DNA of 41,481 nt from an uncultured Pseudomonadota bacterium. Lineage in GTDB: Bacteria > Pseudomonadota > Gammaproteobacteria > Competibacterales > Competibacteraceae. The DNA is taken from assembly GCA_903844665.1 (NCBI GenBank), contig CAIMUS010000318.1, forward strand, positions 1 through 41,481, written 5' to 3'. How positions within the stretch are numbered: the first letter of the stretch is position 1; the number at the start of each line of letters is the position of its first letter. This document shows, piece by piece, positions 8,188 to 20,009 of this stretch. Position numbers and translations under genes: made by a program. Below the pieces are notes generated by a model. It made no database searches, was not told where the DNA came from, and saw only the letters and a list, made by a program, of their open reading frames with translations.

Positions 8188-9000
8188 ATGATTTGTACCA
8201 TTTTACAACGGCTAGCACGGCTGGCGGCCGCCCTTGGCCTGGCCATGGCCGCTGTCGCCTTTGCAGCCGACGACAACCCGCCGCCGCCGGGCCAGGAACT
8301 GGAAAGCCTGCGCCAGGAGATCAAGGACCTGAAAACGGGCCAGGAAGCGATTCAGAAACAGTTGGGAGAGATCAAGCAGCAGTTCCTCCAGGCGGCCCGC
8401 CAGCAGCCGGCTCGGCCACCGGCAGCGCAAACCATCGATGCGGTCGTCCCTATCGGCGATGCTCCCACGAAGGGCAAGGCGGACGCCAAGCTGGTCCTGG
8501 TCGAATTCTCCGATTATCAATGCCCCTTCTGCCAGCGGCATTTCCAGAGCGTTCTGCCGCAACTGGATAAAGATTATATCCAGACTGGCAAGCTGAGATA
8601 CGTCTTCCAGGACTTTCCCCTGGAAAGCCTGCATAAGAACGCCTTCAAGGCCGCCGAGGCCGCGCATTGCGCCGGCGACCAGGGTAAATACTGGGAGATG
8701 CACGACCGCCTGTTTGTCAATCAGCAGGCCTTGGCGCCGGAGAACCTGACGGCGCACGCTGAGGCCATCGGCCTCAACCGCGACGCCTTCCAGCAGTGTT
8801 TGGACGGCGGCAAATACACCGCGCAGGTGCGTGACAGCCTGGCCGCGGGAGAGCAACTCGGCGTCCAGGGTACGCCCAGCTTTTTCCTGGGAACCATGAC
8901 GGCCGACGGCAAAATCAAAGCCGTCCGGGTGATGCGGGGCGCTCTGCCTTACCCTGTGTTCAAAGAAACCATCGACAGCCTTCTGGCTACGGGGTCTTGA
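8188..9000 (+). CDS. Periplasmic DsbA-family thioredoxin-fold protein
   Basis: 270 residues. A signal peptide (residues 1-27, hydrophobic, ending AVAFA-A) comes first. A helical segment rich in Glu/Lys/Gln (37-72, LESLRQEIKDLKT...LGEIKQQFLQAA) is likely a short coiled coil that may mediate oligomerisation. The catalytic domain has C112-P-F-C115 in FSDYQCPFCQRHF and the cis-proline loop QGTPSFFLG. This layout matches Com1/ScsC/BdbD-like disulfide oxidoreductases of the DSBA family. The substrate is unknown. GAGG stands 8 nt before the ATG. It appears monocistronic, flanked on both sides by palindromic repeats. Confidence 0.88.
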   Translation: MICTILQRLARLAAALGLAMAAVAFAADDNPPPPGQELESLRQEIKDLKTGQEAIQKQLGEIKQQFLQAARQQPARPPAAQTIDAVVPIGDAPTKGKADAKLVLVEFSDYQCPFCQRHFQSVLPQLDKDYIQTGKLRYVFQDFPLESLHKNAFKAAEAAHCAGDQGKYWEMHDRLFVNQQALAPENLTAHAEAIGLNRDAFQQCLDGGKYTAQVRDSLAAGEQLGVQGTPSFFLGTMTADGKIKAVRVMRGALPYPVFKETIDSLLATGS

Positions 9001-9043
9001 ATCTTCGGGCGGCCAGCCGCTGGCCAAAGGTGCAGTAGACAGC

Positions 9044-9162
9044 CTGGGAGCGCCGGCGTCCCCGCCGGCAACGGGGAATAATTTACGGCCGGTCTGCCTC
9101 AAGCAGACCCCATCGTTTGTGATCGGTCCTGTTTAAGCCGGCGGGGACGCCGGCGCTCCCAG
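9044..9162. repeat. Inverted repeat pair, 26-bp perfect arms
   Basis: An arm starting ctgggagcgccggcgtcccc at 9044-9069 is repeated perfectly inverted at 9137-9162, with a 67-bp spacer. The same arm sequence occurs at 32504 and, in part, at 8031-8055. It lies between the convergent DsbA-like and EcsC genes and could end both transcripts, but it lacks T-tracts. Confidence 0.75.
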
Positions 9163-9172
9163 GGACCGATCC

Positions 9173-10009
9173 TTACCACCCCTCCAGGGGGCTATATTCC
9201 CTTTCGGCCTCGGTCTCGAACAAGCTCAAGCGCTCGTACTCGATTCTGATCGCCTCGGCGCCGTATTCCCGTTCCAGCCGGCGGACGATGAAATGCCCCC
9301 TGCCCACGTCCTGAAAATGCTGCATGAAGATCAGATTCAGCACCGACCCGCTGACGGCGCTCACCATCGGGACCAGTTGGGCCGCCACCTTATCCGAAAT
9401 CACCATACCGAAGCGGGCGGCGATGGCCTGGATCAGTTCGATGCCGGCCGGTAGCGCGACTCCTTTACCGCCGCTGTAATCGAGAAATTCCGCAAAGTGC
9501 AAGGCCAGAGTGGTGCGCAGACCGTAGTAACCGGTCTCCGCCGCATCATCTTCCTTGGAGCGTCCACCCAAAGCAAAGACTTCCAGGCAGGCGATTCGGG
9601 CTTCCGTCGTGTTCAGATCCTCGCCCTCGCTATGGGCGATAGCGGCGATGGAACGCAACATCAAAATCGTCGTTACCGGCAGTTCGACCACCAAACCCAG
9701 GGGACCGAAGAAGCCGCCCAGGGCGCCGCTGCCCAGCGCCAGCAACTGGTGCCAGCGGTCATGAGCGAGGGCGGCAGGAAGCGGCTCCATCGAGGCGATA
9801 GCGACTTCCGTCGCCCGCCGGATGCTGTACTCCGCGGTCGTCTGTAAGCGGCGGTACCACTCTTTAGGCAACAGCCCAAGCAATTGCTCGATGGGGGTAC
9901 CGATGACGCTGCACAAGCGCGCCGCGAAAGAAGGATGCTCAAGCTGTCGGTGCGCCCATTGGAGATCCGCCAGTTCTTCGGCGGAGAGGGTGAGTGGCGC
10001 TGTCTTCAT
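9173..10009 (-). CDS. EcsC-family protein
   Basis: 278 residues. EcsC proteins are named after the third gene of the Bacillus subtilis ecs operon; their biochemical role is unresolved. Recognisable features are the central glycine-rich amphipathic stretch ALGSGALGGFFGPLGLVVELPVTTILMLRSIAAIAHSEG, followed by ARIACLEVFALGGRSKEDDAAETGYYGLR. A second hydrophobic region (VSDKVAAQLVPMVSAVSGSVLNLIFMQHFQDVGRGHFIVRRLE) is also typical. It is probably membrane-associated, inferred from these segments. It is transcribed away from metK, so the gap 10010-10288 serves both. Confidence 0.82.
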   Translation of the reverse strand: MKTAPLTLSAEELADLQWAHRQLEHPSFAARLCSVIGTPIEQLLGLLPKEWYRRLQTTAEYSIRRATEVAIASMEPLPAALAHDRWHQLLALGSGALGGFFGPLGLVVELPVTTILMLRSIAAIAHSEGEDLNTTEARIACLEVFALGGRSKEDDAAETGYYGLRTTLALHFAEFLDYSGGKGVALPAGIELIQAIAARFGMVISDKVAAQLVPMVSAVSGSVLNLIFMQHFQDVGRGHFIVRRLEREYGAEAIRIEYERLSLFETEAEREYSPLEGW

Positions 10010-10080
10010 AGTGCTGAACCTGCTTTAAAAGTTACACAATGATTCAAGAAGTACGTGTCGATTCGAAGCGGCGGACTGGG

Positions 10081-10103
10081 AGTTGGATTGTAACAATCCA
10101 ACT
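10081..10103. promoter_or_regulatory. Perfect 10-bp inverted repeat upstream of metK
   Basis: AGTTGGATTG-TAA-CAATCCAACT is a perfect palindrome with a 3-nt centre, between the divergent EcsC and metK starts. It is AT-rich for a terminator and has no T-run, so an operator or an RNA stem are both possible. I know of no regulator with this site. Confidence 0.45.
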
Positions 10104-10131
10104 CTTATCGGTTATATTCATATACTCAACT

Positions 10132-10143
10132 TTTCACGTGAAA
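10132..10143. promoter_or_regulatory. 12-bp palindrome TTTCACGTGAAA upstream of metK
   Basis: A perfect palindrome about 145 bp before the metK start codon. It looks like a dimeric regulator site. It does not match the MetJ box (AGACGTCT). Function is inferred only from symmetry and position. Confidence 0.4.
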
Positions 10144-10288
10144 TCCTAAAATTTTCCAGGTAAACTGCGCCGCTACCATGCGCCTCAAGCCCTGAACAGC
10201 GTCAAGGCGGTCCGGGTATTCCGGCGGGCTGGCGCGGTGTTGTTAGTCCCCATATTCGTTCAAGTTTTAAGTTAAGAGATAAAGTGGA
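10144..10288 (+). other. Possible structured leader of the metK-ahcY-metF unit
   Basis: The GC-rich part can fold: CGCCT (10181) pairs with AGGCG (10205) and CCGG (10212) with CCGG (10221) around a GTATT loop. I looked for SAH, SAM-I and SAM-II riboswitch cores and did not see them. The bases just before metK (aagttaagagataaagtgga) give only a weak ribosome site. Confidence 0.3.
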
Positions 10289-11449
10289 ATGAGCCGTAGC
10301 TATCTGTTTACCTCAGAATCCGTTTCCGAGGGACACCCCGATAAAATCGCCGACCAGATCTCGGATGCCGTACTGGACGCCATCCTGGAGGCGGATCCCC
10401 GCGCCCGCGTCGCTTGCGAGACTCTGATCAAGACCGGGGTCGTGGTTCTCGCCGGCGAAATCACCACCTCCTCCTGGGTGGATTTCGATGAGATCGTCCG
10501 CCAGACGATCATCGACATCGGCTATAACAACTCCGATGTCGGTTTCGATGGCGCCACCTGCGCCGTCCTGTCCTGCATCGGCAAACAGTCGGGGGACATC
10601 GCCCAGGGCGTGGATCGGAGCAACCCCGAGGAGCAGGGCGCCGGCGACCAGGGCTTGATGTTCGGTTACGCCACCAATGAAACCGATGTGCTGATGCCCG
10701 CGCCGATCACCTACGCCCACCGGCTGGTGCAGCGCCAGGCCGCCATGCGCAAGACCCATGTCCTGCCCTGGCTGCGCCCGGACGCCAAGAGCCAGATTAC
10801 CTTCCGCTATGAGGATAACAAGATCGTCGGTGTCGAAGCGGTGGTGCTGTCCACCCAGCACGATCCCGATATTTCCTACGACCGGCTGCGGGAGGCGGTC
10901 ATGGAGAATATCGTTATCCCGGTGCTGCCGGCGGAATGGCTGGACAAACACACCAAATACCATATCAATCCCACCGGCAAGTTCGTCATCGGCGGACCGG
11001 TAGGCGACTGCGGCCTGACCGGGCGCAAGATCATCGTCGATACCTACGGCGGCATGGCCCACCACGGCGGCGGCGCCTTCTCCGGCAAGGATCCTTCCAA
11101 GGTGGATCGTTCCGCCGCCTATGCGGCGCGCTATGTCGCCAAGAACATCGTCGCCGCCGGTCTGGCCGACCGCTGCGAGATTCAGGTGTCCTACGCCATC
11201 GGCGTCGCCGAGCCCACTTCGATCAGCGTCAACACCTTCGGCGTCGGCAAGCTCCCCGAAGAACGGCTGGTGGAGATTGTCCGTGGCCACTTCGATCTGC
11301 GCCCTTACGGCCTGGTCAAGATGCTGAACCTGATCCGGCCGATCTACCGCAAAACGGCTGCCTATGGTCACTTCGGCCGTGAGGAGGAAGAGTTTAGTTG
11401 GGAGAGCACCGATAAGGTCGACGCTCTGCGCGATGCCGGCGGTTTGTAA
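10289..11449 (+). CDS. metK: S-adenosylmethionine synthetase
   Basis: 386 residues, the normal size. It makes S-adenosylmethionine from methionine and ATP. Motifs are [23 protein letters not shown] (residues 10-32), [16 protein letters not shown] (the ATP/Mg loop) and [29 protein letters not shown] (the phosphate-binding loop and K+ site region). It starts a same-strand run metK, ahcY, metF, with gaps of 57 bp and 71 bp. Together these cover methylation-cofactor synthesis, SAH removal and methyl-group supply. Two palindromes and a foldable leader precede it. No anomalies. Confidence 0.98.
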
Positions 11450-12891: not shown

Positions 12892-13755
12892 ATGAATTCA
12901 CAACAGCAACATCCGCAAATCTTTAGCTGCGAGTTTTTTCCTCCTCATGACGAGGCGGGTCTGGCGCAATTGCGCCAGACCCGGGCGGAACTGTTGCGGT
13001 TGCGTCCGGCTTTTTTCTCGGTCACCTACGGCGCTGGCGGCTCGACCCGCGATCGCACCATCGGCACGATCCTGGAAATCCAACGGGAGGGAACCGTCCA
13101 GGCGGCGCCGCATCTGACCTGCATCGGCTCCACCCGGGAGAATATCCACGCCATCCTGGAACACTATCAGTCCCAGGGCATCCGTCGGCTCGTCGCCCTG
13201 CGCGGCGATCTGCCTTCCGGCGCCTATATTCCCGGCGAGTTCCGCCATGCCAATGAACTGGTGGCCTTCATTCGCGCCGAGACAGGCTCGCACTTTCATA
13301 TCGAAGTGGCGGCCTATCCGGAGCTTCATCCCCAGGCGCTCAGTGTCGAACAGGATATTCTGAACTTTCGCCGCAAGGTGGAAGCCGGGGCTAACAGCGC
13401 CATCACCCAGTATTTCTATAATTGCGACGCCTATTTCAGTTTCATCGACAGTTGCGAAAAGCTGGACATCGACCTGCCCATCGTGCCGGGCATTATGCCG
13501 ATCACCAATTACAAGCAACTGGCGCGTTTTTCCGATACCTGCGGCGCCGAGATTCCGCGCTGGATTCGCAAGCGCCTGGAAAGCTTCGGCGACGATCTGG
13601 CCTCGATCCGCGCCTTCGGCCTGGACGTGGTGGCGGACATGTGTCAACGCCTGTTGGAACAGGGGGCGCCGGGGCTGCATTTTTACACCATGAACCGGGC
13701 GGGACCGACCCTGGCTATCTGGGATCGGCTGGGGTTATCTCTGTCCAAGGTTTAA
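12892..13755 (+). CDS. metF: 5,10-methylenetetrahydrofolate reductase
   Basis: 287 residues from the ATG at 12892 (MNSQQQHPQIFSCEFFPPHDEAG). The frame stays open 25 codons further upstream but that part is intergenic in character. It reduces methylene-THF to methyl-THF with a flavin, feeding methionine synthesis. Motifs are FSCEFFPPHDE with the catalytic Glu, SVTYGAGGSTRDRT, LVALRGDLP, the EVAAYPELHPQ region and ITQYFYN. A second, truncated metF lies at 18511-19153. The opposite-strand glycosyltransferase gene ends inside the last 41 bp of this gene. Confidence 0.97.
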   Translation: MNSQQQHPQIFSCEFFPPHDEAGLAQLRQTRAELLRLRPAFFSVTYGAGGSTRDRTIGTILEIQREGTVQAAPHLTCIGSTRENIHAILEHYQSQGIRRLVALRGDLPSGAYIPGEFRHANELVAFIRAETGSHFHIEVAAYPELHPQALSVEQDILNFRRKVEAGANSAITQYFYNCDAYFSFIDSCEKLDIDLPIVPGIMPITNYKQLARFSDTCGAEIPRWIRKRLESFGDDLASIRAFGLDVVADMCQRLLEQGAPGLHFYTMNRAGPTLAIWDRLGLSLSKV

Positions 13756-15508
13756 TTCGGTACACACTGACACCTTGGCTCTCGAAAATCGTCTCGAAAT
13801 AGCGTAAGAAGTCTGGCTTTGCTGCAATCATTGGCCAGCGCAAATGATGAATTACCAGCGTATCAAACCCCATCTCTGCCAGCCTGCGAGCAAGACTCTC
13901 AGGCGGCAAATTAGCTAAGTCGCGATAGCGCCAAGGCCCAAAATGATCTCCATAGATCGGTTGCGGCGCATAGTAGATCGCATCCTCCAGGCCGAATTGA
14001 TAGACATGCACACTCGGCAGACGCTTCAGATACGTGATGACGTTGTAACCCGATATGCGCGATCGCAGATACATCTCGCGTTCTGCCTCTGTGACGGCAA
14101 TTTTCTTCCAGTTCGATTTCATCATCGGCACTGTAGTCCAGAAGAACGCAGCAACGCACAACAAGGTTACACTAACCTGGAGACTGCGCTTCCACGGATT
14201 AGGCAGGGAGAATTTAAGTCTTCCACCCAAACTGTCACGCAATGCTTCCAGTAACCACGCCCAACCACGCGCAGCAAGCAGTGCAAGTACCGGAAACGCC
14301 GGCATGAGATAACGAATATACCCTCCGGTCGTCGCGTACCACACCAAAATTGAATAGCCGCCGAAGCCTATTGCGAGCTTCCAATGTGTTGTGCGACGTA
14401 CCTCAGGAATTATCGGCACAAATAATGCTGGCCAGAGTAGCCACGGTAGTTTGCCTGCACGGCTACGAACGTCCGCGATCTGATACGCATAATCCTCCGT
14501 GTTCCAGTCACTGAAGCCGAATAAAGGCCCGCCCAACGGATTGAATGGATCACCCGTCATCATGGCGTTCCTTGCGTACCAATACACACACGGCACCAGA
14601 AATACGAATACTGTTAAACTTATCACCCGGATACGACGCTCGCGCATTAGCATTAAGCCGGTAAAGATCGGCAGAAAACTCAATGCCTGATACTTCACCC
14701 CTGCTGCGACGCCTAACAAAAAAGCAGCTCCGAGCAACCAACCAAACTGCGATTGCGCAGACCTCCACCACAACCACATAGCGACGCATGCACCGAATAC
14801 AAACACGGTGGTACCCATGTCAATGCACGCATTATCATATTGCTCCGCCGACAAGACAAGCCATATGAAGGCAGCAGATAGGGCCTGTGCCCTAGCTGCG
14901 AATTTCAGGCCAACCTGATACACAAGCAATGCACACAACCATCCTGCAAGCGCATGCAGCAAGTGCGTGAACACGTCGTCATATAATAACAGTGTGGCCG
15001 CATACAACAGTTCATAGTTGTATGGGAACCATGGATAACGTAGCCACAAATTGACTGTCAAACTTCCTGTTTCCATCCAATGCAAAGCATGCGGCAGGTG
15101 GTACATCAATTCGTCCCAAGCTTTTGGTGGACAAAACGGCGCAAGCAATATGCGCAGCATAGCCGCTATGAATAAGAGTAGGGCACCTTTCTCAGGTAAC
15201 AGCAGGGAGTGCCACGATAGATACGAAAATGAAATTTGACGCCGCTGCCTAACAGCAGCAAACACACCCAATAGCATTAGTATGACAACTGTCGTGATGG
15301 TCAACACGCCCAGGATTGCAAGAAATTGTAATGCCACGATGACAATGCCGAGTCCAAACGTGGCAGCTAATCCGAACCGCATTAATGGCTCAGAACCAAG
15401 GGAGTCGAGGATGCGTCTGAATACTATTGCCCCAAAACCAAAGCACACCACTACAAAGGCTAATAGCGCGACAAAATGCGAGCCAATAAAGATAAGTTTT
15501 AAGACCAT
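13715..15508 (-). CDS. Membrane glycosyltransferase, GT-C/family 39 (ArnT/PMT-like)
   Basis: 597 residues with roughly ten or more hydrophobic segments. The first luminal/periplasmic loop has APFCPPKAWDELMYHLPHALHWMETG, a version of the acidic loop with catalytic Asp seen in lipid-phosphate-sugar-dependent GT-C enzymes. Further on come GVAAGVKYQALSFLPIF, VYWYARNAMMTGDPFNPL and GGYIRYLMPAFPVLALLAARGW. It probably moves a sugar from a polyprenyl-phosphate donor onto a cell-envelope acceptor; the acceptor is unknown. Base composition is visibly poorer in GC than the flanking met genes. Its last 12 or so codons (KPWTEITPADPR) are antisense to the metF 3' end, so its natural C-terminus was probably lost or replaced at the junction. 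GtrA and GT2 genes follow upstream. Confidence 0.8.
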   Translation of the reverse strand: MVLKLIFIGSHFVALLAFVVVCFGFGAIVFRRILDSLGSEPLMRFGLAATFGLGIVIVALQFLAILGVLTITTVVILMLLGVFAAVRQRRQISFSYLSWHSLLLPEKGALLLFIAAMLRILLAPFCPPKAWDELMYHLPHALHWMETGSLTVNLWLRYPWFPYNYELLYAATLLLYDDVFTHLLHALAGWLCALLVYQVGLKFAARAQALSAAFIWLVLSAEQYDNACIDMGTTVFVFGACVAMWLWWRSAQSQFGWLLGAAFLLGVAAGVKYQALSFLPIFTGLMLMRERRIRVISLTVFVFLVPCVYWYARNAMMTGDPFNPLGGPLFGFSDWNTEDYAYQIADVRSRAGKLPWLLWPALFVPIIPEVRRTTHWKLAIGFGGYSILVWYATTGGYIRYLMPAFPVLALLAARGWAWLLEALRDSLGGRLKFSLPNPWKRSLQVSVTLLCVAAFFWTTVPMMKSNWKKIAVTEAEREMYLRSRISGYNVITYLKRLPSVHVYQFGLEDAIYYAPQPIYGDHFGPWRYRDLANLPPESLARRLAEMGFDTLVIHHLRWPMIAAKPDFLRYFETIFESQGVSVYRIKPWTEITPADPR

Positions 15509-15835
15509 GTAATCTCACTCAGTGGTTGAAAGCCTAACTTATAATTAGGCTCATTAATCGGCATGTTATAACAGGCATCTGCTCTCTTGAAAGGTATTAA
15601 ATTTTTTGCACATCAGAACCATCAGAACCCTGGTAAAATGCAAGAGACATATTACTACTTGAAAGACACAGGATAAAGGCGCCGCCTTGTCGCAATGCCA
15701 ACGATACATGTTATAGCACGCAGATAAGCCCACTGTTCTTTTTACTCGCGTAGCTTCGGATAAGGAACGAATCCTAATATATCGAGAAAAAGAGCAATTT
15801 GCTCTCCACCTATGCCTGATCGTCCGCAGGCTCTT
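15509..15835. other. Gene-free AT-rich gap between glycosyltransferase and gtrA-like genes
   Basis: No frame here looks real. It contains a small inverted repeat GCCTAA-cttataa-TTAGGC at 15531-15549, just upstream of the GT-C gene, and otherwise low-GC sequence with A/T runs. It probably carries the promoter of the GT-C gene, which I cannot place. Confidence 0.4.
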
Positions 15836-16333
15836 TCATTCGTCGAGCGTTTTGATGGCTTTGCCAAAGTTCTGCTGAATTTGCTTGTGCAGATGCGATG
15901 CAGAAAAATCTTCCGCCTCCGTCGTAATCCTTCTTAGGGTAGCGATAGCAGGAACCCGGAACACCAGCAGCCTCGACGTCGCAAAATTGACTCCTAGCCC
16001 AGCAAGTGAGCCGACGGCAACAGCCAGCCACGGTTGCGCGCGCGTCATCTCCCACCAGGCGATACAGCCAGCGAAGGCCCCGTAATTCATAAGCGCGCCG
16101 ACCATCATGAAAGCAACGTAGCGTGCCCACTCAGTGCGGTTCGCACGGTGACTGACTTGGAAAGTGTAATGCCGGTTTATCATCCAAGTGATGCTCGCGG
16201 CCACCAGGAAAGAAACCACACGCGCGGTATAGGGATTCGTTTGCATGCCGGTTACCAGCAGATGGAGAATGCTGGCGTCGAATACGAAACCGATGATGCC
16301 AACGATGCAAAAGCGTATGAACTGGAGATTCAT
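15836..16333 (-). CDS. GtrA-family membrane protein (putative lipid-linked sugar flippase)
   Basis: 165 residues with four predicted membrane helices: IRFCIVGIIGFVFDASILHLL, YTARVVSFLVAASITWMINRHYTF, ARYVAFMMVGALMNYGAFAGCIAWW and LAVAVGSLAGLGVNFATSRLLVF. The first helix with FxxVGxxG spacing and the NRHYTF and N-F-x-x-SR-x-LVFR signatures are typical. GtrA proteins are thought to flip or present undecaprenyl-phosphate-linked sugars. Its ATG overlaps the GT2 stop by 4 bp, so the two are probably translated together; the GT2 enzyme would make the lipid-linked sugar that GtrA moves. Confidence 0.87.
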   Translation of the reverse strand: MNLQFIRFCIVGIIGFVFDASILHLLVTGMQTNPYTARVVSFLVAASITWMINRHYTFQVSHRANRTEWARYVAFMMVGALMNYGAFAGCIAWWEMTRAQPWLAVAVGSLAGLGVNFATSRLLVFRVPAIATLRRITTEAEDFSASHLHKQIQQNFGKAIKTLDE

Positions 16334-17292
16334 TCGTTGTTTTCAGGGGCCTGGATTCCCAGGTAAAACAGCCGCTTCATTTCCTGCCGGCCGCGCGTAA
16401 CCGTGTCGAGGATCAATCCGCAGGCAAACGACAAGAACGCGGCCAGCATCATTCCAGTTACCAGGATCGCAGTCGGGAAACGCGGCACGAGACCGGTTTC
16501 CGCATAGGTCAGAAACAGCGGTATAGACAGCGCTAACGACGCCAAGCTCAGAGCGATGCCGATAGACCCGAAAAACGCTAGCGGCCGCTCCTGCCGGAAC
16601 AACTTGAGTATGGTCCAAAGTATCCGGATGCCATCGCGGTAGGTGTTCAGCTTGCTGGTTGAACCTTCCTGTCGGGACTTGTAGGGCGTGTCAATTTCCT
16701 CGATCGGCATGCGCAGTTCCAGTGCGTGCACGGTCAGTTCAGTTTCAATCTCGAAACCGGTCGCAAGTGCCGGGAACGACTTTACGAAGCGTCGCGAAAA
16801 CACTCGATAACCAGAGAGAATGTCGGTGAACGTGTGGCCGAACATCTGGGCGGTGATTTCGGTCAGCAACCAATTGCCGAAACGATGCCCGTGTCGGTAC
16901 GCAGTGGTTTCGTCGGTGACGCGCCGACCGACGACCATATCCATATTGCCGGCGAACAACCGGTCGATCATTATCCTTACGCTACCCGCATGATAGGTGT
17001 TGTCACCATCGACCAGCACATAGGCATCCGCTTCCACATCTGCGAACATACGTCGTACGACATTACCTTTACCTTGCAAGGATACATGGCGCACAATTCC
17101 GCCCGCGTTCCTGGCAACTTCGATGGTACGATCACAAGAGTTGTTGTCGAACACGTAGATGATCGCGTTCGGCAGTGTATCGCGAAAGTCGCGAATCACT
17201 GTGGGAATCGCGACTTCTTCGTTGTAGCAGGGGATCAAGACAGCGATACGGGGCTTGTTGTTCATTGACGTGGAGATGTGTGCGACTTGCAT
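16330..17292 (-). CDS. GT2 glycosyltransferase, polyprenyl-phosphate type (GtrB/DPM1-like)
   Basis: 320 residues, or 311 if translation starts at the internal ATG 17265 (MNNKPRIAVLIPCYNEE), which fits the family better; neither start has a clear ribosome site. The GT-A domain has IAVLIPCYNEE, YVFDNNSCDRT, the metal-binding DGD at residues 95-97 in YVLVDGDNTY, and DILSGYRVFSRRFVKSFP. Two C-terminal membrane helices (AFFGSIGIALSLASLALSIPLFL and AILVTGMMLAAFLSFACGLIL) anchor it. It likely transfers a sugar from a nucleotide donor onto polyprenyl phosphate. The 5' end abuts a transposase remnant. Confidence 0.88.
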   Translation of the reverse strand: MQVAHISTSMNNKPRIAVLIPCYNEEVAIPTVIRDFRDTLPNAIIYVFDNNSCDRTIEVARNAGGIVRHVSLQGKGNVVRRMFADVEADAYVLVDGDNTYHAGSVRIMIDRLFAGNMDMVVGRRVTDETTAYRHGHRFGNWLLTEITAQMFGHTFTDILSGYRVFSRRFVKSFPALATGFEIETELTVHALELRMPIEEIDTPYKSRQEGSTSKLNTYRDGIRILWTILKLFRQERPLAFFGSIGIALSLASLALSIPLFLTYAETGLVPRFPTAILVTGMMLAAFLSFACGLILDTVTRGRQEMKRLFYLGIQAPENNE

Positions 17293-17296
17293 TAAA

Positions 17297-17455
17297 AATG
17301 ATGAGATTGCTACCCGGGTGACCCCTCAAATACCGATCCGCCTCCTGCGCTACGTGGTCCAGTACCGCCCGCTCCTCCCAGGCTGACTCACTCAGCATGT
17401 GTTGTAAGGCTTGATGATCTACCTCCGGGACCACTGCTTGCATCCGTAACCCGGC
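17297..17455 (-). pseudogene. IS701-family transposase remnant
   Basis: About 50 codons read MQAVVPEVDHQALQHMLSES, then AWEERAVLDHVAQEADRYLR, then GHPGSNLII. This matches my recollection of the N-terminal part of IS701-family transposases (DHQALQHFLSES-WDERAVLDQVA type). The catalytic DDE part is absent, and the match ends within a few bases of the GT2 gene start. The 17456-17597 stretch upstream has an interrupted frame that I do not recognise. Confidence 0.65.
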
Positions 17456-17597
17456 TTGACCAGCCCGCCGATTACGCCGACTTCGGATCGATGCCGGCCA
17501 GCCGCGTGCCGATGATCCCGGCTTCTTCGTTGTCTTACAGGGTTCGCGAGTAACCTCGGTCGCGTAGGGTGTTGACGATGTCAATAAGCGGCACGGT

Positions 17598-17900
17598 TTA
17601 CAGCGTCCGCTTGATCGATTTGTTAGCCATCACATCATACAAGCCACCCGAGACATATTTATGCAAAATACTTGATACCAGCGTTTGGTAAGGAATACCT
17701 TCTTCTAATGCACGCTTTTGTATCGCATGTAAATCTCGAGCCGAGATTCGAATATTAATACGCTTATCTTTTTTAAATGTTTCTGCAGCAGCCTTTGCAA
17801 TTTCTTTTTTGCGATCTGGAGTTAAGACAGATCTAAATTCACCGGCTTCAAAATCCTTTAACAGTTCTTTTTCCTCTTTAGAAAGTTTTACTTTGTTCAT
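17598..17900 (-). CDS. CopG/BrnA-like antitoxin
   Basis: 100 residues. An acidic N-terminus (KEEKELLKDFEAGEFRS) precedes a ribbon-helix-helix-like segment RINIRISARDLHAIQKRALEEGIPYQTLVSSILHKYVSG. This resembles the CopG-type antitoxins that partner BrnT-like toxins. The order here is toxin then antitoxin, overlapping by 4 bp. It should bind the toxin and repress the shared promoter. Base composition is markedly AT-rich compared with the window. The fold call is from the pattern only. Confidence 0.78.
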   Translation of the reverse strand: MNKVKLSKEEKELLKDFEAGEFRSVLTPDRKKEIAKAAAETFKKDKRINIRISARDLHAIQKRALEEGIPYQTLVSSILHKYVSGGLYDVMANKSIKRTL

Positions 17901-18175
17901 GACTCATCTCCAAGATATAGCTTGGTAGCTTTACGACTCGGAATAATCGTTTTTAGAAAGATTTCCTCATCACTTTCGACATATGGCACCATATGGACAT
18001 ATCCATCAATATTAACTACAAACACTTTCTGGTTTGGATACTTTTTCTTATTGGGATGCTCAATATCATCGAGAAGACATCCTTGCTGCAAATAAAAAAG
18101 AATGTCCTCGAAAGAAACTTGCCGTTCTTCGATAAGTTGCTGATTCTTCCCAGGATCCCAGTTAAATGCTTTCAT
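17897..18175 (-). CDS. BrnT-like toxin
   Basis: 92 residues. It begins MKAFNWDPGKNQQLIEERQVSFEDILFYLQQG, the FxWDPxKxxxxxxxxxVSFED opening of BrnT-family ribonuclease toxins. It continues with QKVFVVNIDGYVHMVPYVESDEEIFLKTIIPSRKATKLYL, matching the strand order and the terminal SRKA-x-K-x-Y of related toxins. It probably cleaves RNA and is neutralised by the downstream gene. The pair is low in GC and lies in the accessory block, so transfer is likely. Confidence 0.78.
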   Translation of the reverse strand: MKAFNWDPGKNQQLIEERQVSFEDILFYLQQGCLLDDIEHPNKKKYPNQKVFVVNIDGYVHMVPYVESDEEIFLKTIIPSRKATKLYLGDES

Positions 18176-18182
18176 AAAAACA

Positions 18183-18202
18183 ATAATAGCACATCTGTGT
18201 GC
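18183..18202 (-). promoter_or_regulatory. Candidate promoter -10 and operator of the toxin-antitoxin pair
   Basis: Reading toward the toxin gene, the palindrome GCACA-CAGA-TGTGC (18202-18189) directly precedes TATTAT (18188-18183), a good -10 sequence. A repressor bound there would block the polymerase, as expected for antitoxin autoregulation. No clear -35 was seen. Confidence 0.4.
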
Positions 18203-18261
18203 CCATCGGCATCATTTTGAACGACTGAGGTTGGGCGTATCCGGTCCGTGCAGGCAGTTCC

Positions 18262-18326
18262 GTAGGGTGGGCATGGCCCACCTTCGCATCAAGTCGGTCG
18301 GTTAAGGTGGGCCGTGCTCACCCTAC
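18262..18326. repeat. GTAGGGTGGGC...CCCTAC palindromic repeat
   Basis: The arm GTAGGGTGGGCATGGCCCAC, then CTT, pairs with AAGGTGGGCCGTGCTCACCC, then TAC, across a short spacer with a few mismatches. It is a common type of intergenic palindrome. The stretch 18176-18901 as a whole holds no gene, only this repeat, the next one, a metF 5' remnant and two inserted elements. Confidence 0.65.
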
Positions 18327-18421
18327 CGGGCTGACGGGTGAAGTTCAGCCGCCGCTCCGTCAGGCGCGGCGGCTGGAGCGATTTGTTAAACCGCGTTTAT
18401 TTTGAGACCTGAAGTTTCTGC

Positions 18422-18507
18422 GCTGTGGGAGCGGCGCCCTCGCCGCGATCAACCCGGTAGTGCCACAGGTGCAGCCAGTTATCGCGGCGAGGGCGCCGCT
18501 CTCACAG
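18422..18507. repeat. TGTGGGAGCGGCG-type palindromic repeat
   Basis: gctgtgggagcggcgccctc followed by gccgcgat (18422-18449) is mirrored by atcgcggcgagggcgccgct followed by ctcacag (18481-18507). The same unit occurs at 25018-25114. It ends three bases before the 5' metF remnant. Confidence 0.7.
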
Positions 18508-18510
18508 GTT

Positions 18511-18535
18511 ATTCACAACAGCAACATCCGCAAAT
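18511..18535 (+). pseudogene. metF 5' remnant (second copy)
   Basis: Twenty-five bases (starting attcacaacagcaacatccg) are identical to 12896-12920, codons 2-10 of intact metF. The start codon itself is not retained. With the 3' fragment at 18902 it shows that a second metF once stood here and lost its middle. Confidence 0.7.
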
Positions 18536-18536
18536 T

Positions 18537-18906
18537 TTGGTGGTATCCCCCAGTTTACGTGATGAATTTAACTCAAACTGCCCTTATGTTGTAGTGATAT
18601 ATACACGTCATACTACATATAGTAAATTTCGACACGAAATATCCGATTCTCACGGTAAATTCAGTAATGTAAGCGTTCACACCCCTCCCCCTAACCCCCT
18701 CCCACAAGGGGAGGGGGAATAGGCTAAGTATCTGTTTTGCAATAACTCCCTCCCCCCTTGTGGGGGAGGGTTGGGGTGGGGGGTCTGAACGGTTACTCAG
18801 TAATAATTGGCTTCCAACTACTGCATCTATGCAATCCTCTGGATAGGAACACAACATCTAGATCTCAGTAAGTTAGTGCATCACGTAAACTGAGGGACAC
18901 TACCAA
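18537..18906. mobile_element. Inverted-repeat element inside the second metF
   Basis: The ends 18537-18564 and 18879-18906 are inverted copies matching at 25 of 28 positions, with core cagtttacgtgatg. Without the nested MITE and its duplicated 8 bp it is about 234 bp, AT-rich and non-coding. It replaces metF codons 11 to 204. I see no target duplication, so either its insertion came with a deletion or the remains of an IS were lost. The family is not assigned. Confidence 0.65.
18669..18796 (-). mobile_element. MITE copy 2, IS66-like ends (nested)
   Basis: A 128-bp inverted copy of the element at 3599. It is flanked by the perfect 8-bp repeat tcagtaat (18661-18668 and 18797-18804). It lies inside the element at 18537-18906, so it inserted later than that element. 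Confidence 0.87.
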
Positions 18907-19153
18907 CTATAAGCAACTGGCGCGTTTTTCCGATACCTGCGGCGCCGAGATTCCGCGCTGGATTCGCAAGCGCCTGGAAAGCTTCGGCGACGATCTGGCC
19001 TCGATCCGCGCCTTCGGCCTGGACGTGGTGGCGGATATGTGTCAGCGCCTGTTGGAACAGGGGGCGCCAGGGTTGCATTTTTATACTATGAACCGGGCGG
19101 GACCGACCCTGGCTATCTGGGATCGGCTGGGGTTATCTCTGTCCAAGGTTTAA
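18902..19153 (+). pseudogene. metF: metF 3' fragment (second copy)
   Basis: The last 84 codons including the stop match intact metF 13504-13755. I count eight base differences over 252 bp, and all are silent (AAT/AAC, TAC/TAT, GAC/GAT, CAA/CAG, CCG/CCA, CTG/TTG, TAC/TAT, ACC/ACT). The homology stops within a few bases of the stop codon. It has no start and no N-terminal half, so it cannot give a working reductase. Confidence 0.93.
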
Positions 19154-19239
19154 TTACCAAGCCCCTGCCGGCCTATCGGGGGAATCGTGCAGGTTTCAAA
19201 GCAGAACAACAATCGTCAACGGCTGAACACCCCGGTCAA

Positions 19240-19267
19240 TGAACTGGCGCCGTTAGGCGCCAGTTCA
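19240..19267. terminator. Perfect 12-bp hairpin between metF fragment and RRM gene
   Basis: TGAACTGGCGCC-GTTA-GGCGCCAGTTCA is a perfect stem between the convergent ends of the metF fragment and the RRM gene. No T-tract follows on either strand, so termination is inferred from position and strength only. Confidence 0.5.
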
Positions 19268-19288
19268 CATTAAACCGGATGTCAGGTG

Positions 19289-19564
19289 TTACCACCGTCT
19301 CGGCTTCGAGGGGGAACGCTCAGTGCGGGGACGGGCTACGTTAGCGGTGATATTCCTTCCATTTACCGAACGCCCATTTAACTCCTTGATGGCTGCTTCA
19401 GCCTCAGACTGCTTGTCCATTTCCACAAAACCAAAACCTTTCGACTGGCCCGTGTACTTGTCCTTGATAAGGCTGACACTCGTCACCTTTCCATGCTCTG
19501 CAAACAGAGCCTGAAGTTGGTCTTCTGTCACATCATACGGCAGATTGCCTACATAAATATTCAT
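19289..19564 (-). CDS. RNA-recognition-motif (RRM) RNA-binding protein
   Basis: 91 residues, a single RRM with a short basic tail (RPRTERSPSKPRRW). RNP2 is IYVGNL at residues 3-8 and RNP1 is KGFGFVEM at 42-49; the spacing and the beta-alpha-beta pattern are complete. Bacterial single-RRM proteins of this type bind single-stranded RNA and are often cold-induced; the target here is unknown. It stands alone, with a long structured upstream region, next to the second metF fragment. Confidence 0.93.
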   Translation of the reverse strand: MNIYVGNLPYDVTEDQLQALFAEHGKVTSVSLIKDKYTGQSKGFGFVEMDKQSEAEAAIKELNGRSVNGRNITANVARPRTERSPSKPRRW

Positions 19565-19739
19565 TCACATCTCTCATGATAATGTGGCGATTCTCTAACA
19601 CTATCGAGTAACTCGCCACCCATTCATCGATAGCCATCTGCCGTGACACGGCAAATTCCTGCGAACCGCACCTACGGGTGCAGTTCAAGGGATTCGCGCC
19701 AGCGCGTAACCCCTGCAATGTTCACCTTAGAGTTAGGCC
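19565..19739 (-). promoter_or_regulatory. Structured upstream region of the RRM gene
   Basis: On the gene strand, GAACTGCACC-CGTA-GGTGCGGTTC forms a 10-bp stem with one mismatch. It extends outward through AATCCC/GGAATT pairing (one wobble) around small bulges. GCCGTG-T-CACGGC forms a second perfect stem. Two hairpins within 175 bp upstream of an RNA-binding protein suggest a leader that could be autoregulated. The rest of the gap to dapE (19740-20009) shows no convincing gene. Confidence 0.4.
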
Positions 19740-20009
19740 ATGAATAGTCATTTATTACATGTCCTTTCGATGACTGGGGGACTCTATGCACCCCAGGATC
19801 ACAGGCATACGGCGCGGCTCAGCATTGATTCGTTCTGGCAACGATCCCAACCCGCGTCAAACCTGGATTCAGCAATCTGGCCTGCCAGAGATCTCTCGAA
19901 ACCGACAAAGGGTATGAGCACACGGTGCGTAAAAAACCCTTCGATGGTCGAAGAAACAACCAGAATTGACTATGAAAATATACATTTTCTATGACTATTT
20001 ATCAAGACC

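Follow-up and report, generated by a model that had tools for sequence, protein, structure and literature searches.

The window analysed here was a stretch of 41,481 nt from an uncultured member of the Competibacteraceae. It contained an intact metF gene (12892-13755, forward strand, 287 aa; PF02219, E 2.1e-89), third in the gene order metK-ahcY-metF, which is kept in relatives. The part of this gene from codon 205 to two nucleotides past the stop codon (13504-13757, forward strand) recurred on the same strand at 18902-19155 with 97% identity, as the 3′ remnant of a second metF without an internal stop codon. The first three bases of this remnant, ACC, also fitted the end of the adjoining mobile element (the outer element described below).

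Part of the 5′ end of the second metF was found as well, at 18511-18538 on the forward strand. It began at the second base of codon 2, stopped within codon 11, lacked the start codon, and was the same as 12896-12923 at 27 of 28 nt. The sole difference (ATC/ATT) was silent in frame. Its first four bases, ATTC, doubled as the tail of a neighbouring REP-like repeat. The remaining 24 bases matched only metF when the whole window was searched on both strands with up to six mismatches permitted. A stretch of 580 bp of metF (the equivalent of 12924-13503) was missing between this piece and the 3′ remnant. Since remnants of both ends survive around this deletion, the second metF was formerly near full length. 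Homology between the copies set in close to the start codon, spanned the coding sequence and ended two nucleotides past the stop; neither flank was shared. A preliminary description of the window had recorded a second metF fragment. The 3′ fragment is indeed there, but it is not all that is left of the gene, as 28 nt of the start survive.

Nested repeats in the broken copy

The REP-like palindromic repeat occupied 18398-18514, with arms at 18423-18449 and 18481-18507. Its tail, GGTTATTC, shared ATTC with metF nucleotides 5-8 at the joint. The palindrome (18423-18507) had many copies elsewhere in the genome. Next to the 5′ remnant lay an outer, MITE-like element (18539-18904) with 26-bp terminal inverted repeats, replacing metF 12924-13503. 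It was 366 bp long as found and 230 bp long once an inner element and one target duplication were subtracted. One further complete copy, uninterrupted and 230 bp long, was present in contig C181 of the same genome, with seven differences, all of them transitions. The inner element, a MITE of 128 bp at 18669-18796, was nested within the outer one and flanked by an 8-bp target duplication, TCAGTAAT, at 18661-18668 and 18797-18804. It had terminal inverted repeats (50-nt arms, 82% complementary) and a high copy number, with at least 37 other places in the genome at 91-100% identity among the 40 of 192 candidates that were scored. One other copy was identical over 129 bp. Given these copies and this identity, the inner MITE was probably active until recently.

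Bacterial MITEs are short elements with terminal inverted repeats, present in several or many copies. Both elements resembled them in being short, in having terminal inverted repeats and in having further copies, and the inner one also in its target duplication. Unlike typical MITEs, the outer element stood in for 580 bp of its target, and a clear target duplication was seen at neither of its complete copies. Its inverted repeat, with up to three mismatches, occurred in eight places: two in the window, two in C181 and one each in contigs C130, C117, C327 and C172. The elements in C117 and C327 would be short, as a second arm lay about 110 nt away at six mismatches. By eye, no transposase of a parent insertion sequence was seen among the ORFs around the arms in C130, C117, C327 and C172. 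In the literature collection searched, no paper dealt with miniature inverted-repeat elements in Competibacter. Elsewhere in the window, a perfect 27-bp inverted repeat (9043-9069 and 9137-9163, arms 67 nt apart) directly followed the ORF at 8188-9000. The ORF at 51-542, at the start of the window, was repetitive and rich in Ser, Arg and Cys, and is perhaps a repeat rather than a gene.

The outer element preceded the inner MITE, because the C181 copy was uninterrupted while the copy in the window was split, with TCAGTAAT on both sides. The uninterrupted C181 copy and the perfect 8-bp target duplication also speak for a correct contig at the nested elements. This bears on the possibility that the assembler fused the metF loci of two strains at a repeat. 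The genome is in 348 contigs, and multi-copy REP-like and MITE repeats lie between the metF copies, as such a chimera would need. However, the 5′ and 3′ remnants flanked the MITE in the same order and on the same strand, the 8-bp duplications of the inner element matched, and the halves of the outer element joined up as they do in C181. The metF copies were identical over 125 bp at most. We therefore regard a chimeric contig as very improbable.

The block between the metF copies

The sequence between the copies (13758-18510) had a GC content of 42-56% in 500-bp windows, against 56-67% in most flanking windows. The flanking exceptions were 10000-10499 (52%) and 18500-19999 (48-55%), the latter consisting of the MITEs and an intergenic stretch. 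The largest ORF described here (13715-15508, reverse strand) encoded a membrane protein of 597 aa with a weak, below cut-off NCBIfam match (NF047510); GT39 served as a working label for it. Its last 14 codons overlapped the 3′ end of metF, and the joint at 13757/13758 therefore trimmed or extended its C-terminus. Among 38 other family genomes, one contained a relative, whose 29% identity made it too distant to judge a C-terminal cut. In 368 other genomes of the class there was none at E <= 1e-30. The protein had a single place in its own genome, and a protein search of phages and plasmids found none. In viral contigs, eight stretches fitted its peptide pattern and none was a relative.

Next on the reverse strand were a GtrA-like membrane protein (15836-16333; PF04138, E 5.4e-21; phrog_2224, E 4.3e-6) and a GT2 glycosyltransferase resembling GtrB and AglJ (16330-17292; PF00535, E 1.1e-13; phrog_841, E 2e-14). 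The glycosyltransferase also matched TIGR04182 (E 4.8e-60, below the equivalog cut-off). In a gtrABC-type cluster, a GtrA flippase and the glycosyltransferase GtrB are accompanied by a third, specific membrane transferase. The ORFs could be considered a gtr-like trio, with GtrA- and GtrB-like members matched and a third, the 597-aa protein, only weakly like any model. A CopG-like antitoxin (17598-17900, reverse strand; PF12441, 27.9 bits, cut-off 28) and a BrnT-like putative toxin (17897-18175, reverse strand; PF04365, 30.6 bits, cut-off 34.5) adjoined and overlapped, both scoring below the Pfam gathering score. The pair matched phrog_38250 and phrog_4399 and had no match in PADLOC. Pairs of the BrnT/BrnA type combine a BrnT toxin with an adjacent antitoxin of the CopG/BrnA type. 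By its AT-richer composition and its rare main gene the block looks foreign.

One explanation for such a block is a gene-restoring integrative element, which would have rebuilt metF with a 3′ end of its own and displaced the native 3′ end. In E. coli K-12, a 165-bp segment is duplicated at icdA/e14/icdC with 12 differences, 10 of them silent, according to the accounts in PMC4759930 and PMC11148124. As far as those accounts describe that locus, the picture is the same: an intact gene, an inserted foreign block and a displaced remnant with mostly silent differences. The 3′ end of the target gene was here, too, duplicated on both sides of the insert with silent differences, homology stopped just past the stop codon, and the GtrA- and GtrB-like proteins matched phage families classed as morons in PHROGs. 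One departure from the e14 type stands against this explanation. The displaced remnant of an e14-type insertion has no 5′ end, and a 5′ end is not expected to be displaced from an attachment site at the 3′ end, whereas the displaced metF retained its 5′ remnant at 18511-18538. A further difference from the e14 locus is that all of the changes in metF were silent. The metF case thus departs from the e14 type in one defining feature. In addition, no integrase was detected with Pfam, NCBIfam or PHROGs in the five block ORFs scanned, and no attachment site was found. A decayed element could have lost its integrase gene. The region matched no plasmid or phage record by DNA, and the 597-aa protein none by protein. 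An insertion of this type is unlikely.

Divergence of the two copies

Repeat search and direct alignment gave the same ungapped repeat of 254 nt (13504-13757 against 18902-19155). All eight differences in it were transitions and all eight were synonymous. Given as intact/broken codons, they were AAT/AAC at 13509, TAC/TAT at 13512, GAC/GAT at 13638, CAA/CAG at 13647, CCG/CCA at 13671, CTG/TTG at 13675, TAC/TAT at 13686 and ACC/ACT at 13689. Read from intact to broken, six of the eight were GC-to-AT. Similarity between the copies stopped 2 nt past the stop codon. GC3 was 0.76 in the intact and 0.72 in the broken copy over 83 codons, a comparison uninformative on origin.

The silent-only pattern exceeds chance. 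The probability that all eight changes were silent was 1.6e-5 from the silent share of all possible single changes (188/747), 2.9e-4 from that of possible transitions (90/249) and 1.5e-3 from that of GC-to-AT transitions (68/153). The preliminary description had counted eight differences over 252 bp without an amino-acid change and had reasoned that a broken copy drifting after duplication should gather replacements too. The count was reproduced, and the reasoning is borne out by a neutral probability of about 0.0003 for random transitions. The dN/dS-type comparison that it proposed as a check gave pS = 8/62.7 silent sites = 0.128 (Jukes-Cantor dS 0.14) and no replacement over 186 sites.

Two further processes could in principle produce the same pattern: neutral decay in which every change happened to be silent, and gene conversion with the intact copy as donor, erasing all other changes. 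The excess of GC-to-AT changes from intact to broken would suit decay. A run of 44 unchanged silent-transition sites between the copies was longer than expected by chance at p = 0.03, and the clustering of the silent differences that it reveals is a weak hint at conversion or a mosaic origin. Decay has to contend with the probabilities given above, even at the GC-to-AT share, and conversion would not be expected to spare silent changes. We consider both extremely improbable.

The pattern supports divergence of the copies under selection at the protein level, with the second copy broken recently relative to that divergence. With silent changes taken as a clock, 14 replacements would be expected had the whole divergence been neutral. 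For a neutral share of the path of 50%, 25% or 20%, the probability of seeing no replacement was 0.0009, 0.03 or 0.06, respectively. The lack of any amino-acid change thus limits the neutral period of the second metF to some 20-25% of the divergence at most. The outer element offers a second clock. It differed from its C181 copy at 7 of 230 bp, and at 1.5% per copy the probability of no replacement in the remnant was 0.06. The two clocks are just compatible, assuming that both element copies began alike. The statements in the preliminary description that both alleles were selected while diverging and that the break is recent are therefore supported, the latter relative to the divergence.

Relatives and the proposed history of the locus

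Of 54 metF matches outside the genome itself, 20 were fetched for comparison of their neighbourhoods. ahcY was found in 19 of these loci, with a gap to metF of less than 300 bp in 14 and of 1.2-7 kb in five. The left, intact metF of the window thus lies in the conserved metK-ahcY-metF operon. To the right of the broken copy are an RRM gene and dapE, and neither was beside metF in any of the 20 fetched loci. In 24 dapE loci of relatives, neither an RRM gene nor metF came closer to dapE than about 1.5 kb. One relative (G012) had metF and dapE on one contig, 17.5 kb apart. By eye, the gene after metF encodes a lipoprotein in several relatives, and the nearest counterpart of that gene here was a 42% match with one stop on another contig (C239). 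With the RRM gene and dapE never beside metF and the lipoprotein gene on another contig, the gene order on the right-hand side of the broken metF differs from that of the family.

Inserted DNA may have a hotspot at the ahcY-metF junction of this family, where gaps exceeded 1 kb in five of 19 loci. One relative (G021, locus L139) had an IetA/IetS-like defence pair there (E 8.6e-136 and 2e-285), and ORFs resembling this pair by eye lay between ahcY and metF in two others (G026, L135; G010, L140). A 7-kb insert in a fourth (G011, L136) encoded DndC-, DndD/PbeC- and SspH-like proteins and weakly AriA/PtuA- and AriB-like ones. Repeats of metF or ahcY in the five relatives with inserts did not exceed 39 nt, the best having E 0.002 over 20 nt. 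Two relatives had two metF places each (G010 on C7 and C102, G023 on C53 and C137), in each case with one on a contig starting inside ahcY. These may represent a second operon or mixed bins.

We built a tree of the metF 3′ region from both copies and 29 relatives, in which the genus was represented by this genome alone. The two copies were sisters with support of 100/99, and the nearest other row had 79% DNA identity to the intact copy. All change was assigned to the branch of the broken copy (0.037 against 0). Relatives agreed with the intact copy at five of the eight differing sites and with the broken copy at three. The rooting of the two copies is weak, because silent sites were saturated against the other rows. 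No closer homolog of either copy was found in 58 other genomes, among the 80 of 126 loci retained from the species collection, by peptide patterns in viral contigs, or by DNA in plasmids and phages. The best full-length match was in G027 (74% protein identity), with a partial match over residues 120-283 in G034 (77%).

The preliminary description had proposed that one metF was imported from a relative, together with the block or by recombination around it. It had named as contrary evidence a tree in which the copies are recent sisters with no closer homolog for either. This is the topology recovered, in a genus sampled by one genome, and it counts against import on those terms. With this genome as the only representative of its genus, a donor from inside the genus is neither identified nor excluded by the tree. 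The foreign look of the block and the selection on both copies stand from that proposal; import from a relative is no more than plausible.

Duplication of metF within this genome is the alternative to import that we take most seriously, although the balance is clearly tilted against it. Both copies would have long been functional, diverging silently until the right one was broken by a MITE, and metF would not have been imported. The sister position of the copies without a closer homolog is as this explanation predicts, and change confined to the broken branch would also be expected of a copy made inside this genome. The doubled metF of G010 and G023, if not due to mixed bins, would be a precedent. 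Against it, both copies would have had to remain under selection up to a silent divergence of 0.14 without collapse or homogenisation; moreover, they have no common flank and are separated by the foreign-looking block. We prefer two alleles to duplication because of this silent divergence at a distance of 5 kb, the homology limited to the coding sequence and the foreign look of the block. Homology confined to the coding sequence fits two alleles from different settings.

Observed at the locus are copies that differ at silent sites only, remnants of both gene ends in their original order, nested elements and a block of odd composition. Our favoured account, held at a little better than even confidence, is that an incoming allele and the block displaced an older metF through recombination with DNA of a close relative, and that the old copy was then gutted. 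This recombination would have placed in tandem two metF alleles that had separated while both were functional, with a silent divergence of about 0.14 and no replacement. The incoming piece would have consisted of the intact metF and the foreign glycosylation and toxin-antitoxin block, and would have recombined by homology on the native ahcY side. At the other end, its REP-like repeat would have been fused to codon 2 of the resident metF by an illegitimate joint, perhaps via the 4-bp ATTC, an overlap short enough that it may have arisen by chance. The resident gene would thereby have been deprived of its start codon and promoter. After the displacement, the 580 bp from the middle of the resident gene would have been lost, either in a deletion next to an incoming MITE or when two MITEs recombined, and as the last step the second MITE would have inserted into the first. 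We prefer the left copy as the newcomer because the right copy has no start codon and the REP-like tail is joined to its codon 2 via ATTC. This direction, with the left copy new and the right one old, is suggested by structure alone and is the least certain step.

A parallel to the displacement of a resident allele is found in the T6SS clusters of V. cholerae, for which PMC5361080 describes ancestral immunity genes shifted downstream of incoming modules and proposes homology-facilitated illegitimate recombination as the cause. As in that description, a module would have entered beside homologous DNA and the old gene would have moved downstream. Unlike there, where many strains document the steps, a single genome is available here, and displacement would have affected a housekeeping gene, which was later broken. 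Such recombination involves one homologous anchor and one illegitimate joint with microhomology, for which the ATTC common to the repeat tail and metF nucleotides 5-8 is a candidate. A mobile glycosylation cassette that targets metF, carries its own complete and silently recoded metF and displaces the host gene at each entry would go further than this. We think it quite unlikely; if true, it would be a whole-gene version of the icd/e14 strategy.

In our best reading, the metF case is a cousin of icd/e14/icdC and of immunity-gene displacement in V. cholerae, and an instructive example of ordinary genome wear. The two copies show cleanly how divergence at silent sites only, seen between a gene and its wreck, distinguishes the meeting of two alleles from the decay of a duplicate, and the nested elements supply an order of events. 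The biology of metF itself is unchanged by the finding. As the ahcY-metF junction repeatedly holds inserted DNA, including defence genes, the neighbourhood of metF may be a general entry point.
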